Shown here in pieces: positions 7,621-16,710 of a DNA stretch of 37,689 bases. The stretch is from a virus, in the IMG/VR virus record IMGVR_UViG_3300042554_000344, positions 1 to 37,689 of that record. One strand, given 5' to 3'. Below the pieces are notes generated by a model. The model ran no database searches, had not been told where the DNA came from, and was given only the letters and a program-made list of their open reading frames with translations. The translations under genes were made by a program, and so were the position numbers. Within the stretch, counting starts at the first letter, position 1; every line of letters begins with the position of its first letter.

Positions 7621-7947
7621 TCAGGTGTTGTACGTGCCGGACGCGCTCAAGCCACCGTTGGTAGCCAGCAGAGTCACGGTATCGCTAGCCGCAGTGGACT
7701 TGGCATACACGTTCACGCCATCGCTCATGATGACGCCACCAGTGTTGGCAGCAATCAACGTGGCATTAGAGCTTCCGTTGAAAGCGATAACGCTGGTGTT
7801 CGCTTGCGGGAACATCAGGTACACGCCAGCCGGAATCACAGTGCCGTTGCCGGTGCTTACTGCGGTAACAGTGGTCGTCAGGAAATACGCACCAGCCGTG
7901 TTGGTGGTTGCGTTCGACAGGATGATTTTGTTTGTAGACAGAGACAT
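7621..7947 (-). CDS. Putative capsid decoration protein
   Basis: A 108-residue Thr/Ser/Ala-rich beta protein (MSLSTNKIILSNATTNTAG at the start; GVYLMFPQANTSVIAF in the middle), encoded 10 bases after the major capsid gene. Small beta proteins in this position are usually head decoration or stabilising proteins. That is the likely role here, by position and composition. A good AGGAG ribosome-binding site precedes the start. Confidence 0.65.
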   Translation of the reverse strand: MSLSTNKIILSNATTNTAGAYFLTTTVTAVSTGNGTVIPAGVYLMFPQANTSVIAFNGSSNATLIAANTGGVIMSDGVNVYAKSTAASDTVTLLATNGGLSASGTYNT

Positions 7948-7957
7948 TTTCTACTCC

Positions 7958-8959
7958 TTACAGCGAGAGGTAGTTGTAGCCGCTGACCACAGACATGGAT
8001 TTCGGTTTGACGTTAACGAGTTCTGCAATCATCAGAACAGCGCCAACATAACCGATTTGCCAGTTGGGGAGGGTGGACTCAAAGCCCGTGAACACGAACG
8101 AACCCTGCTCATGGATGTAGAGCGACAGGTAGTTGGTGTTCAGGAAGTACACCGTACCTTCTGGGCAGTACGGGTCAGGATAGATAGGCACACCAGCAAC
8201 CATCAGGGCGCGGAATGCAGCCTGTGGGCCGTTGGGGTCACCATCAAAGCCGGAGCCAGGGGTGATGACGTACTGCTCTTGACCAACAAAGTCTTGAGCC
8301 AGCAGAGTCCAAGTACCAAAACCGCAGACACCAAACGAAGGCATCTCAGCACCGTTTTTCACAGTGCCGGAGATGTATTGCAGGATGTTCTGACGGGTCG
8401 GGTTGACGTTACCTGCCGAGTACGCTTTCGACCGCCACCAGCTATAGGTCGAGCGGTCAATGTTTCCGTAAGTGCCCGAGGCGCTCACAGAAGCAGGCAG
8501 ACCGATGAACTGCTGGGTGTTGGTAGAGTTGTTGTACAGAGCCGTAGCCATTGCGTCCATCATGACGTTGGTCGCGTCATTCATACGCGCCTCAATCAGA
8601 GGAATAATGGCAGCGTCTTGCTGAACTGCGCCTTCCATGCCGAGGAACGGCACAGGAGAAATCATCAGCTTGAGGTCATACTCAGCGTTGTAAGCGCCCT
8701 GCTGGACAGACGGTTGAGCGAACGAGCCGCTGTAGTCTGACCATTGTGCGTTCACGAACTGAGCGCCCTGGACGGGCACGGTCACGGACGACACACCACC
8801 GCTGGCTTGCTGACTGTTTGCAATCAGAGCCGCCATCAGCGGAGTCGAGTTGTAAAGTTGAACAACCAGCTTAGGGATAAACGCACGCCGAGTGACGTAA
8901 GTCAACTCGTTGAATTGACTCGACCCTGTTGCTGGAAGAATACCGCCACCAATAGGCAT
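7958..8959 (-). CDS. Major capsid protein
   Basis: A 333-residue protein in the canonical position after the scaffold-like genes. The N-terminus (LTYVTRRAFIPKLVVQLYNSTPLMAAL) and the following GGVSSVTVPVQGAQFVNAQW segment match the N-arm and early beta pattern of HK97-fold capsid proteins of the P22-like and related podoviral lines. A helical ARMNDATNVMMDAMATALYN segment resembles the spine helix. The C-terminal half is beta-rich. A strong AGGAGAG ribosome-binding site lies just before the start. The length is in the normal range for an HK97-fold capsid subunit. Confidence 0.85.
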   Translation of the reverse strand: MPIGGGILPATGSSQFNELTYVTRRAFIPKLVVQLYNSTPLMAALIANSQQASGGVSSVTVPVQGAQFVNAQWSDYSGSFAQPSVQQGAYNAEYDLKLMISPVPFLGMEGAVQQDAAIIPLIEARMNDATNVMMDAMATALYNNSTNTQQFIGLPASVSASGTYGNIDRSTYSWWRSKAYSAGNVNPTRQNILQYISGTVKNGAEMPSFGVCGFGTWTLLAQDFVGQEQYVITPGSGFDGDPNGPQAAFRALMVAGVPIYPDPYCPEGTVYFLNTNYLSLYIHEQGSFVFTGFESTLPNWQIGYVGAVLMIAELVNVKPKSMSVVSGYNYLSL

Positions 8960-13034: not shown

Positions 13035-13812
13035 TTTCGTACCCCTTCTTTAACAGGTGTTCCAGAAACATCATCTCTTTGTGCATGTTCTGAGGCTCGT
13101 GCTTGGTTGTGTCTATCCTAAGCTTGTGACCTCCTACCAGTTTTCGGGTAGGGCCGTGACAGCCGAACAGCTTGTCAAGGTCAAAGTCATCGTGGTAGCC
13201 AGGACCAAAATACTCTACAGAAAAAAACTTGGCTTCTTGGTCTGGAGCGTATTTCAGTCCACACCGCTCTAGCTCTGTTCGCATGAACCCTGTTAGCTGC
13301 ACATCTTCGTTACAGAAAGGCATGACGTTGTAAGCTTTGTGCATCACGCCATGTTTGCCAGGGGCTTGCAGCATCTTCTTGCTTCGCAGAGAAAACCCAC
13401 CGTTTTGGATGATGTGCTTAGGCTGTGTCTCTTGTTGCCATGTCCAGTTGTAGTAGTACTTTTCAGACGTTAAGGCGCAGTGTGTAGGAGCGCCTACGTA
13501 GTCGTACTCGTACCAATCCTTGTTGAAGTTGTTTCCGTCTAACACCCAGCCATCGTCTTGAACGATGAGAACATGGCTTGTGTCTACAAAATGATGCAAG
13601 GCATACATCATGAACCACGAGTACTGGAAATAGTCCAGCGGGAAGATTCCCTTGTGGTCTATAAACCAAGGAAGTGTAGGTGGCCTGCTAGGGCTTAGCA
13701 GTAGAGCCTTGCTGCCAGGAAGTTGTGTTGTGCTTCTAACAAGGCTTGGAATGGCGCTAGTGCCATCGTTATGCCCGTACACCGCCACTACGGTCAGATT
13801 ACTGTGTGCCAT
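12970..13812 (-). CDS. DUF5672-like glycosyltransferase
   Basis: A 280-residue protein with the marks of the DUF5672 glycosyltransferase-like family: VLIVQDDGWVLDG (residues 81-93) containing the acidic pair expected to bind metal and nucleotide sugar, YDYVGAP (103-109), IIQNGGFSLRSKKML (134-148) and FCNEDVQL (166-173). Enzymes of this kind add sugars to proteins or surface polymers. It is unusual in lying between the large terminase and portal genes. The start overlaps the terminase gene by 14 bases, so it is expressed late. The target could be a virion protein, but nothing in the sequence shows it. Confidence 0.75.
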   Translation of the reverse strand: MAHSNLTVVAVYGHNDGTSAIPSLVRSTTQLPGSKALLLSPSRPPTLPWFIDHKGIFPLDYFQYSWFMMYALHHFVDTSHVLIVQDDGWVLDGNNFNKDWYEYDYVGAPTHCALTSEKYYYNWTWQQETQPKHIIQNGGFSLRSKKMLQAPGKHGVMHKAYNVMPFCNEDVQLTGFMRTELERCGLKYAPDQEAKFFSVEYFGPGYHDDFDLDKLFGCHGPTRKLVGGHKLRIDTTKHEPQNMHKEMMFLEHLLKKGYEIEYFKQPAEQDGTQKADAPVL

Positions 13813-15556
13813 ACAAACCTATCCGCTTGAGGTAGTCGCTGACGTTTCTGCCAACAGCAATTTGTTCAGGCGTGTAGTCTTCCTGCGCCTTGCTGATGTC
13901 GCGGGTAATCTTCTGCGCTATCAGGCGAGGCTGTAACTGCTCTGCAAAAGCAACGCTGGCAAGGGCAGTGGCAATGACCCTATCGTCTTTGCCACGCCCA
14001 GGAGCGCCCAAGAAACCACTGTCTCGCACAATACCCTTCATCTCTTCCAGCAACTCCATGCTGTAGACGCGCATCATGTCTCGCTCAAAATAATCTTTCA
14101 TGTAGTTGAGCATTCTTTCCTTGGACGATGCTGTAGTGACGTAGCCAAGGCTGTTAGACAGGCCACCAAGGGTGTCGTTACGCCTCCAGATGTAATTCTG
14201 CATAGAACCGAGCACATCCATCAAGCCATGCCCCATAGGACCGCCCATAGAGCTTGCCATGCGTTTGAGGTTGCGTATCTCGTTGATGACCGCCTGACCT
14301 GGGCCGTTGACCTCTAGGTTGAGCGTAGAGTTCTTGTACGCGCCAGCAAGGTGAGCAATAACCCACGCAAACTGGTAGGTGTTGAGTTCACTGGTTGCAA
14401 ACTCTGCTACTTGGTCAAGGCCGTCAGCGTAGCATCTGAACACCTGTATGCAAAATCTATCTGCCCAGTCTGAGCTTCCGTAGGCTGGATCGGCTCCAAT
14501 AACGTAGTAAGCCGAGTCAATGGGTTGTTCCCACACGCGAAGCGTGGACAGTCGTTCTGTACTTCTGAGCACCTCGGTGTCTTGGAACAACTGACCAAAA
14601 CTGTAGCGGAAGTCTTCATGGTCCCTCTTCTTGCTTTGCTTGGCAGATTCTGTGCATCTCGTGTGTGAGAAAAAACTAGTGCCCGTCATCACAAAGGCAT
14701 AGTCTTCAGTGGGCGGGAACTCTTGGTACATCAAGGTTTCATCTTTGATGCCCTCGTGCATCTTCCAGCGCCACCACGCCATCTGACGAGAGTTGATGTC
14801 TACGCCGTAAAGCTTCTTGATTTCCTTAGTCCACTCTTTTTCTTCTGACTTGAGCTTGCCATCCCAGTACACCTTGTAAATCTGGGAGTCACCAGCAACG
14901 GAGTAGAACTCGTTACGCCACCAGCCACAGAAGATTGCCCTCTGCGTCTTTGCTCGCTTGGCAGTCTTGTACATGTCGTGGAACATGTTAAAGCCCTGAG
15001 CAGTGGACTCAAACATGTAAAGCCTCTCTGCATTCTTCTCAGCAAGAGAAGCTATCAGAGAAGCTAAGCCTTCTTCATTGCCCCACGATGCTGTCTCTGT
15101 GCCGTGTAAGTAGGTAATGGCCTTGCCCTGACCAAGACGAGACTTGTTGCCAGCAATTTGGTAGAAAAGTCTTGACCTGTTTTTGAGGACCATCTGGTTT
15201 CTGTTGTGGGCAACCAGAGGAATCTTGTACTCCTTGGGCAACCCGTCCATGTACATGGCAAGGGTTGACCTGAACATATCTCTGTTCTCTTCTGTATCCG
15301 CAACAAGCGTACCTTGCCAACCAGGGTGGGTGAACTGCCAGTACAGGTCTAGCGCAAGGCTTATCGTGGTGATGCCTAGCTGCCTGCCTTTCAAGATAAC
15401 AAAGAAGTGGACATCCTCCTCCAACCCCTTCGCAATCTCCTCCATCACGTACGTCTGCGTCCCCAGAAGAGTGCCCATCTTCTTCAAGCCCTCCTCCTTA
15501 GTCTCAATCTTGAGTTCAGAGCAGAACTTGTAAAACTTCTTCAGGTCAAAGTTCAT
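13799..15556 (-). CDS. terL: Terminase large subunit
   Basis: A 585-residue packaging motor and nuclease. A Walker-A-like motif VILKGRQLGITT spans residues 53-64. A Walker-B-like segment ITYLHGTETA spans 147-156 with a likely catalytic Glu, and the coupling motif FESTAQGFN is at 182-190. The C-terminal RNase-H-fold nuclease shows VIGADPAYG with Asp356, LEVNGPG with Glu415 and GKDDRVIATALA with Asp524/525. Length and motif order fit the family. It cuts concatemeric DNA and pumps it through the portal. The gene overlaps both neighbours by a few bases. Confidence 0.93.
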   Translation of the reverse strand: MNFDLKKFYKFCSELKIETKEEGLKKMGTLLGTQTYVMEEIAKGLEEDVHFFVILKGRQLGITTISLALDLYWQFTHPGWQGTLVADTEENRDMFRSTLAMYMDGLPKEYKIPLVAHNRNQMVLKNRSRLFYQIAGNKSRLGQGKAITYLHGTETASWGNEEGLASLIASLAEKNAERLYMFESTAQGFNMFHDMYKTAKRAKTQRAIFCGWWRNEFYSVAGDSQIYKVYWDGKLKSEEKEWTKEIKKLYGVDINSRQMAWWRWKMHEGIKDETLMYQEFPPTEDYAFVMTGTSFFSHTRCTESAKQSKKRDHEDFRYSFGQLFQDTEVLRSTERLSTLRVWEQPIDSAYYVIGADPAYGSSDWADRFCIQVFRCYADGLDQVAEFATSELNTYQFAWVIAHLAGAYKNSTLNLEVNGPGQAVINEIRNLKRMASSMGGPMGHGLMDVLGSMQNYIWRRNDTLGGLSNSLGYVTTASSKERMLNYMKDYFERDMMRVYSMELLEEMKGIVRDSGFLGAPGRGKDDRVIATALASVAFAEQLQPRLIAQKITRDISKAQEDYTPEQIAVGRNVSDYLKRIGLYGTQ

Positions 15557-15807
15557 CTTGTTTTCTTGTTGTCAAACTCATCCAGATTCCACGCCAGTAT
15601 GTCGCCAGCAACCTTCTTGTTCTTGGCACAGCGGATAAGTTCCTTGTAAAAGTTCTCGCTATAACGCTCCCTCCACAAGGCCGCTAACTCAATCTTGTCC
15701 TGCTTCTTAGTGCAAGACAAAGCCTTCCTCAACTCCTGCTGTAGCAGCCTGCGGGACTCGTAAAGCTGCCTGCGCCACTGCATCTGAATATCCAATCCTG
15801 TAGCCAT
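15553..15807 (-). CDS. Small helical protein upstream of terminase
   Basis: An 84-residue, strongly helical, charged protein (QWRRQLYESRRLLQQELRKA, residues 10-29; ALWRERYSENFYKELIRCAK further on). It ends with an ATGA overlap on the terminase start. It overlaps the preceding reading frame by about 100 bases, so the true start may be Met9 or later. Position directly before the large terminase makes a small-terminase or packaging-accessory role possible, but no HTH is obvious. The function is unknown. Confidence 0.5.
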   Translation of the reverse strand: MATGLDIQMQWRRQLYESRRLLQQELRKALSCTKKQDKIELAALWRERYSENFYKELIRCAKNKKVAGDILAWNLDEFDNKKTR

Positions 15808-15946
15808 CAGCCGCAGCCTCCTGCACCTTCTTTATCAACATCTCCTGCCTAGCCTGCGAATAAACAAAGTGAGCCAGCAGCAGACGACACGTCTCCCGCA
15901 ACTCATCCTCATCCATCCACAACAAAGCAGTCACAACACCCTCCAC
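15707..15946 (-). CDS. Small helical hypothetical protein
   Basis: A 79-residue protein, helical in the middle (DEDELRETCRLLLAHFVYSQ and RQEMLIKKVQEAAADG). The longest form starts at a GTG that overlaps the previous gene's end; another GTG four codons later has GGAGGG just upstream and may be the real start. The 3' part overlaps the next gene by about 100 bases in another frame, which is unusually long here. No family is recognised. Confidence 0.45.
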   Translation of the reverse strand: MEGVVTALLWMDEDELRETCRLLLAHFVYSQARQEMLIKKVQEAAADGYRIGYSDAVAQAALRVPQAATAGVEEGFVLH

Positions 15947-16155
15947 ACCCTCACAACATCACCCTCAGTCCTAGCCTCAAACCTCCACCCCAACCGCCTG
16001 CCAGCCCTGTAGTTCGCATTCAACACCTTCGCCCTAGCCACCACAGGAACAACAAAACTGTCACCCACCTCCATCTCCTCGTAAGGATAGGCATACACCA
16101 CCCGAGGCTTGGGCATCCCAACTCCAACTTCTTTCTCTATCGCAGCTATCGTCAT
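15931..16155 (-). CDS. First gene of the late unit; paralogue of early protein at 19595
   Basis: A 74-residue protein with the core YPYEEMEVGDSFVVPV (residues 23-38) and an end reading VVRVWRVL. The early protein at 19595-19804 has FPFEQMEVGDSFAVP and ends VRCWRTK, so the two share a fold and ancestry. I recall this small family as DUF7303-like; its function is unknown. It is the first gene after the structured leader, with AGAGG before the ATG at 16155. Having one member at the head of each transcription unit is notable. Confidence 0.7.
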   Translation of the reverse strand: MTIAAIEKEVGVGMPKPRVVYAYPYEEMEVGDSFVVPVVARAKVLNANYRAGRRLGWRFEARTEGDVVRVWRVL

Positions 16156-16195
16156 CTCGCTACCTCTACATATAGCTTCATCTTACAAGCAAGTC

Positions 16196-16340
16196 GGGGT
16201 GGTTGCAACACCCCTTGTCGCCCTGCCAGTTCCGTCAGGGCAAAAAAAGACCAGCACAAGGGGCTGGTCGTAAGAACAGACCAAACCCAGGCTGGTCGAA
16301 TGGAGAAAGACTCCCTGATTGCGAAGGCAACTGCAATCAG
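16196..16340 (-). ncRNA. Six-hairpin leader of the late transcript
   Basis: Six perfect inverted repeats lie nearly end to end: GGGGTG/CACCCC (16196-16214), GCCCTG/CAGGGC (16220-16241), GACCAGC/GCTGGTC (16249-16269), GACCA/TGGTC (16279-16297), GGAG/CTCC (16302-16314) and CTGATTGC/GCAATCAG (16315-16340). The third, with the T7 run, is a minus-strand terminator. Its loop ACAAGGG plus one stem base (16256-16263) is perfectly complementary to CCCCTTGT at 16211-16218, allowing a pseudoknot or an alternative fold. The leader precedes the first late gene. A regulatory RNA role (antitermination or attenuation) is inferred. Confidence 0.45.
16242..16269 (-). terminator. Intrinsic terminator inside the late leader
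   Basis: On the minus strand, a 7-base-pair stem (GACCAGC/GCTGGTC, 7-base loop) is followed at once by seven T residues. This is a standard rho-independent terminator. It lies upstream of the whole late operon, so it must be bypassed for late expression, or it serves to shut that operation off early in infection. Confidence 0.65.
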
Positions 16341-16370
16341 AAGCAAGTCTACAGGAAAAACATAAATTGA

Positions 16371-16400
16371 AAATTTACGTCTTGGAAAAACGTAAAATTT
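16371..16400. promoter_or_regulatory. AT-rich inverted repeat, possible operator
   Basis: AAATTTACGT (16371-16380) and ACGTAAAATTT (16390-16400) form an imperfect palindrome with a 9-base centre. It lies just upstream of the late leader hairpins, next to weak minus-strand promoter-like elements (TTTTCA, 16 bases, TAGACT). It could be an operator or part of the late promoter. Confidence 0.35.
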
Positions 16401-16710
16401 TTATGGGGGGTGGAGAGTGGGGGGCACACAAAACCTAACATCAAAACCCATTCACCTGGGCGCATCTTGCTGATGTCTGATCGTCTGTCTGGCTTGCCTG
16501 TCCTTTTCCCGAAGCCTAGGCCTGCTCTCTGCTCAGGCCAGACCGGGATGGTTGACATAAGCACAGCCCGTGCCTACTGCCCCGATTCCCCAGTCCCTAG
16601 CACCATAGCCTTTTCCTATCGATGGGCGGAAGGTGATAGTCTATGCGTTTCTTGCATAGTTTTGTGACTGGCCCTTTAGGTTACTATGTTAATGACTACT
16701 CACCTAATCA

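Follow-up and report, generated by a model that had tools for sequence, protein, structure and literature searches.

A covarying terminator and a predicted downstream promoter in the late leader of an uncultured freshwater phage

Introduction

Late control at the PR' promoter of phage lambda has an anatomy which resembles that of the leader described here. AlpA, which is itself unrelated to Q, acts on targets in which an intrinsic terminator is located directly before the first gene (PMC7969949). The put RNA of HK022 binds to the beta' zinc-binding domain of RNA polymerase and suppresses terminators located further downstream, and put RNAs consist of two stem-loops of about 70 nucleotides (PMC9378689).

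The leader analysed here belongs to an IMG/VR virus record of 37.7 kb (the window, that is the whole stretch of DNA that was analysed) in which the minus strand encodes the late genes and the plus strand the RecE/RecT-like early genes. The source virus is an uncultured freshwater phage and the leader is probably its late control region. It consists of a series of hairpins placed between the divergent early genes and ORF1, a conserved small gene which opens the late operon and is followed by further small ORFs and then by the large terminase. The host could not be named from genome_contigs, where the only two matches were MAG contigs with alpha- and betaproteobacterial labels whose terminase is 75% identical and thus too distant. 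The features of the locus are as follows, in the order in which they would be transcribed.

16399 to 16427, minus strand: C-rich box GTGCCCCCCACTCTCCACCCCCCATAAAA upstream of P1, a candidate regulator-binding site which recurs across relatives
16346 to 16351, minus strand: predicted −10 of P1, TAGACT, at a fixed distance from the C-rich box in relatives; transcription predicted to start near 16339, where hairpin 1 begins
16315 to 16340, minus strand: hairpin 1, whose loop shows the conserved motif GCAGTTGCC (16334-16326), as judged from motif counts and stem changes
16302 to 16314, minus strand: hairpin 2, GGAG/CTCC, 4 bp, absent in relatives such as L010 and L043
16279 to 16297, minus strand: hairpin 3, in part a second copy of the 5' arm of the terminator (with GACCAGCC repeated), found only in close relatives, e.g. 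L006 and L013
16242 to 16269, minus strand: hairpin 4 with T7, an intrinsic terminator, its stem abutting the T-run and covarying
16220 to 16241, minus strand: hairpin 5, first half of an inserted module; across six lineages its helix is 97% paired, with 3 pairs changed on both sides
16196 to 16214, minus strand: hairpin 6, second half of the module, with the loop TTGCAA(C); its helix is 94% paired, with two-sided changes at 3 pairs and G-U pairs retained
16203 to 16208, minus strand: predicted −35 of P2, TTGCAA, in the loop of hairpin 6, based on the spacing of TTG in relatives
16180 to 16185, minus strand: predicted −10 of P2, TAAGAT, based on TAnnAT in 73 distinct leaders; predicted start at about 16173
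15931 to 16155, minus strand: ORF1, the first late gene, 74 aa, of unknown function; 74 of the first 80 loci retrieved give a tblastn match
13799 to 15556, minus strand, late operon: large terminase (phrog_2, E 4e-14)

Relatives of the leader

Searches with two terminases each returned at least 598 related stretches, and 160 loci, many of them from the same contigs, were collected among the matches listed. The leader set consists of the DNA upstream of ORF1 after removal of duplicates and comprises 73 distinct leaders in which the start region can be recognised; these are mutually related, and the counts given below are not counts of independent events. All sources are metagenomic assemblies, and the elements of the leaders were placed by regular expressions. 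The leaders are strongly diverged, and most of them keep the same order of C-rich box, P1 −10, motif, terminator and P2. These elements, their spacing and their covariation are demonstrated by sequence comparison. A circular phage from Manatee Spring (MW202753.1, L146 about 15000-15641), whose terminase is 76% identical, has its parts in this same order, with a C-rich box, then TATATAT, the leader, a terminator ending in T7 and TGTAATAT, and has no TTG at 17 bp.

The hairpin cluster

The initial annotation described six perfect stems standing almost end to end before the first late gene, and all of them are found on the late (minus) strand between 16196 and 16340. They measure 7 bp (16340-16315), 4 bp (16314-16302), 5 bp (16297-16279), 7 bp (16269-16249, then T7), 6 bp (16241-16220) and 6 bp (16214-16196) and add up to 36 stem bp. 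When non-overlapping perfect hairpins are scored as stem bp per 145 bases, shuffles of 16196-16340 reach a mean of 14.9 and none of 500 reaches 36, a value which is matched nowhere else in the 37.7 kb. The RNA of 16190-16350 folds at −66.8 kcal/mol compared with −49.7 +/- 3.9 for its shuffles (z −4.4), and in a scan of minus-strand folds the most extreme score belongs to the segment at 16241 (z −9.2, 12 shuffles). The second most extreme (z −7.4, 12 shuffles) lies at 7921-8080 on the minus strand, close to the intergenic gap that separates ORF 7621-7947 from ORF 7958-8959.

The stems differ in how far they are conserved in homologous leaders. The terminator and the double hairpin formed by hairpins 5 and 6 recur and covary, whereas stems 2 and 3 show no conservation beyond close relatives, and hairpin 2 is probably without function. 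In the minimum free energy fold the 5' arm of hairpin 3 pairs with the 3' arm of the terminator, and this alternative fold still finishes at the T-run. A second fold, mutually exclusive or pseudoknotted, had been proposed on the basis of an 8-base complementarity between the terminator loop with one stem base (16256-16263) and 16211-16218. The complementarity is exact and lineage-specific, being confined to this phage and its near-identical sisters; it is missing in five further lineages which share the downstream hairpins and in which the longest complement of 4-5 nucleotides is at chance level, and a pseudoknot or anti-terminator formed through the loop was rejected on these grounds.

The terminator and the predicted late promoter P2

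The rho-independent terminator that had been noted on the late strand directly before the first late gene holds up across the relatives. A perfect stem of 7 bp or more directly adjoins the T-run in 63 of the 66 leaders with a T-run, compared with 5% of shuffles, and the basal stem occurs in 22 distinct versions with both sides changed, which amounts to strong covariation. The window copy has the properties expected of an intrinsic terminator, namely a G+C-rich hairpin of 7 pairs with T7 directly after it, and compensatory change among its relatives.

The P2 −10 reads TACTAT or TAGTAT in most leaders. It is preceded by TTG at a distance of exactly 17 bp in 62 of the 73 leaders, of 16 bp in two and of 18 bp in one, against a background TTG frequency of 4.5%; as the −10 served as the anchor of this count, only the −35 counts as independent evidence. 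In relatives without an insert the −35 sits in the terminator loop or the 3' arm, and TTG at 16-18 bp is retained in 20 of 21 terminator stem classes, whether in the loop or in the paired 3' arm, which argues that it is no by-product of one particular loop. DNA inserted between terminator and −10 brings its own −35 at 17 bp, which is TTGCAA in all seven carriers of the double hairpin and TTTACA in L073, where the insert is a different one. Across the relatives P2 thus shows the features of a sigma70-type promoter (TTGnnn, TAnnAT, 16-18 bp); the window copy, TTGCAA-17-TAAGAT, fits the consensus at only 8 of 12 positions. A search of the literature on promoters embedded in terminators found nothing close.

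It had been argued that a terminator before the late operon requires a bypass. Given a conserved predicted promoter, TTG-17-TAnnAT, which overlaps and follows the terminator, and a predicted late start downstream of it, this need falls away. In the window the predicted −35 spans 16208-16203 and the −10 16185-16180, with the predicted start further downstream and hence beyond 16196, a position for a late promoter that the initial annotation itself had named as speaking against its reading.

P2 is present in more leaders than P1. Four leaders (L100, L115, L134 and L139) lack both the terminator and a recognisable P1 −10 but keep a P2-type −10, which implies that the P1 unit is dispensable. In L144 the terminator 5' arm and the P2 −35 are lost together, so that any P1 transcript should read straight into the late genes.

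The C-rich box, the predicted promoter P1 and the short RNA

Matches around 16429-16386 recur in many relatives which otherwise share little in that stretch, and CCCCCCATAAAA occurs as a single copy within the window. The C-rich box is separated from the P1 −10 by 20-23 bp in 46 of the 50 leaders in which both are recognised, and the remaining four, which include the window lineage, carry an insertion that extends the distance to 38, 52 or 53 bp. In the window the added DNA, about 30 bp within 16354-16399, nearly repeats the A/T-rich spacer (distance 53 bp); a similar insertion is seen in L011 and one of about 16 bp in L071 and L080. The P1 −10 of relatives reads TGGTAGACT or TGGTATAGT with TGn in front. 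No good match to a −35 was found for P1, which makes an activator at the C-rich box plausible.

Between P1 and the terminator GCAGTTG is found in 37 of 58 leaders (at most 9 in 30 shuffled sets) and CAGTTGCC in 29 of 58 (at most 6 in shuffled sets). The stems around the GCAGTTGCC motif differ from lineage to lineage and, as read by eye, the two arms of hairpin 1 change in step (TGAAC/GTTCA in L012, GGATTG/CAATCC in L043). The motif is missing from the cluster of L017, L019 and L098.

The same interval holds tRNAs and other structured RNAs in relatives and thereby serves as a cargo slot. Genes for tRNA-Met lie there in L063 (53-127), L065 (4170-4244) and L066 (53-127), similar tRNA-like sequence is recognised by eye in L040 and L028, and the leaders of L049 and L030 appear to contain an inserted ORF which is HNH-like by eye. 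Several relatives carry between P1 and terminator an apparently uncatalogued structured RNA, ACGCATGGGGATTG...CAGTCCCCAGCCGT(GTT), which does not occur in the window. It is found at L017:4270-4321 and many other loci (L194 onward) as well as in 112 viral_contigs stretches, and consists of a constant 15-bp rod, a 2x2 internal loop and a variable head, with compensatory changes at 4 pairs; its carriers gave no Rfam match at gathering score. Near this element, L256:132-190 on the minus strand gives a sub-threshold match to a Betaproteobacteria toxic small RNA (40.6 bits with a cut-off of 50, E 6e-6), which is a hint of betaproteobacterial hosts.

The double hairpin

Hairpins 5 and 6 are joined by a conserved GAC and form a module of about 51 bp, which is carried by 7 of 72 tree rows (in degenerate form by L105); hairpin 5 is missing from the close relatives L116, L109, L094 and L102. 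Across the six aligned lineages 95.8% of the cells are paired and 12 cells are changed on both sides, with a covariation score of 0.57. None of 500 shuffles is as high in pairing, two-sided changes or covariation, and slid registers all score far lower. On a tree of the large terminase (TerL) the seven carriers require seven changes and a single clade is rejected (p 5e-6), which implies that the module has been exchanged, gained or lost repeatedly. The idea that hairpins 5 and 6 are a mobile element of wide distribution was rejected, since a scan of viral_contigs for their pattern gave convincing copies at this locus of this phage group alone, and none of the other matches has the surrounding terminator and P2 context. 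In the window Rfam gave nothing that reached the gathering score, with only weak sub-threshold matches at the leader; the one match at gathering score is a tRNA in L065.

The G-U pairs point to an RNA made from the late strand. As a plain double-stranded DNA operator the module would be harder to account for, since G-U pairs, a constant loop and changing stems fit RNA better. Since the module follows the terminator and precedes the P2 start, it is expected to be transcribed only by read-through; the covariation therefore suggests that some read-through RNA matters. P2 offers no explanation for this, and it is the main loose end of the analysis. One speculative and rather improbable answer is that the stem-GAC-stem with its TTGCAA loop represents a novel RNA element, exchangeable among phages, which would act in the P1 read-through RNA, its DNA being the P2 −35. 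If so, the double hairpin might for instance modify RNA polymerase for the long late operon and would combine an RNA regulator and a promoter in one short sequence.

Proposed mechanism and alternatives

The arrangement is probably explained by a P1 transcript which is terminated early and a late operon which is restarted at P2, the terminator hairpin usually doubling as the P2 −35. P1, probably aided by a protein at the C-rich box, would make a short non-coding RNA with GCAGUUGCC, and this RNA would end at the intrinsic terminator, at about 100 nucleotides in the phage of the window. Transcription of the late operon would then restart at P2 as an ordinary sigma70-like promoter, and the terminator would separate the P1 unit from the late operon. 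In most relatives the P2 −35 would be part of the terminator hairpin with the T-run as spacer, and in the window the inserted double hairpin would have shifted it into the loop of hairpin 6. Promoter activity, its timing and the role of the P1 RNA are here deduced from the arrangement of the elements.

The best rival is protein antitermination, because the anatomy resembles lambda PR' and the targets of AlpA. A phage protein similar in action to lambda Q or AlpA would load at P1 via the conserved C-rich/A-rich DNA and modify the polymerase so that it passes the terminator into the late operon, which would leave P2 with a secondary role. P1, terminator and ORF1 do follow the sequence of a promoter and then an intrinsic terminator just before an operon, and the order of parts, with a conserved DNA element at the promoter, is that of AlpA targets (PMC7969949); the single copy of the C-rich box in the window and the read-through RNA suggested by the covariation behind the terminator would also fit. 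This reading is nevertheless unlikely, as P2 is the more widespread of the two predicted promoters, some lineages lack both the terminator and the P1 −10, the ten early ORFs scanned in PHROGs yielded no Q-like gene, and the C-rich box is located upstream of the −35 position whereas the AlpA element lies between −35 and −10.

It is less probable still that the P1 product is a trans-acting regulatory small RNA with a GCAGUUGCC seed and a terminator 3' end which is unconnected with late-gene control. The shortest leaders would yield an RNA of about 55-60 nucleotides with the motif near its 5' end and the terminator behind it, and the motif remains near the terminator when cargo enters between motif and P1. 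The window, however, holds no other copy of the motif and no exact 9-nucleotide complement, the cluster of L017, L019 and L098 lacks the motif, and a small RNA would be compatible with the proposed succession of P1 and P2 rather than exclusive of it.

Least probable is the reading of the initial annotation, an RNA-based antitermination or attenuation in the form of a put-like element or a terminator/anti-terminator switch. In its favour, the late-strand RNA is structured, and hairpins 5 and 6 covary and resemble put RNAs (PMC9378689) in being two stems with a short linker between them. Against it, the terminators that put suppresses lie further downstream, while this module, which occurs in 7 of 72 tree rows, lies behind the terminator and could not rescue it; the loop pairing is not conserved, the alternative fold still ends at the T-run, and Rfam offers only weak matches below gathering score. 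What survives of the candidate leader RNA is a conserved short RNA ahead of the terminator and a covarying double hairpin behind it; the premise of a bypass and the pseudoknot are not supported.

Comparison with known systems

The locus yields a map of late-gene control, open to testing, for an abundant group of uncultured phages (at least 598 terminase relatives in one collection), and cautions against taking a terminator in front of late genes, on its own, as evidence of antitermination. Like lambda PR'/tR' and the AlpA-type systems it has a conserved DNA element at its promoter, which is followed by a short leader and by an intrinsic terminator that directly precedes a long late or lysis operon. 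Unlike these systems it has a second conserved, predicted promoter which overlaps the terminator, and its element is located upstream of the −35. No homologue of Q or AlpA was found among the ten early ORFs scanned in PHROGs.

Hairpins 5 and 6 share with HK022 put the two adjacent stem-loops, and they would likewise form in nascent RNA. They differ in forming a module of about 51 nucleotides behind a terminator instead of just downstream of an early promoter, in having a loop, TTGCAA, which serves as the −35 of a predicted promoter, and in being sporadic within the clade; the likeness described here is one of structure. A put-like role is possible but cannot concern the leader terminator, because put acts on terminators further downstream and the module does not lie upstream of this one.

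Finally, P1, variable cargo (tRNA or other structured RNA) and a terminator before a conserved operon are reminiscent of a phage moron or cargo unit. Here, in contrast to a moron, the terminator that insulates the unit also contains the −35 of the promoter that follows, and the core motif is retained in most members, so that terminator and predicted promoter are fused in one hairpin which has been conserved through a large turnover of sequence.
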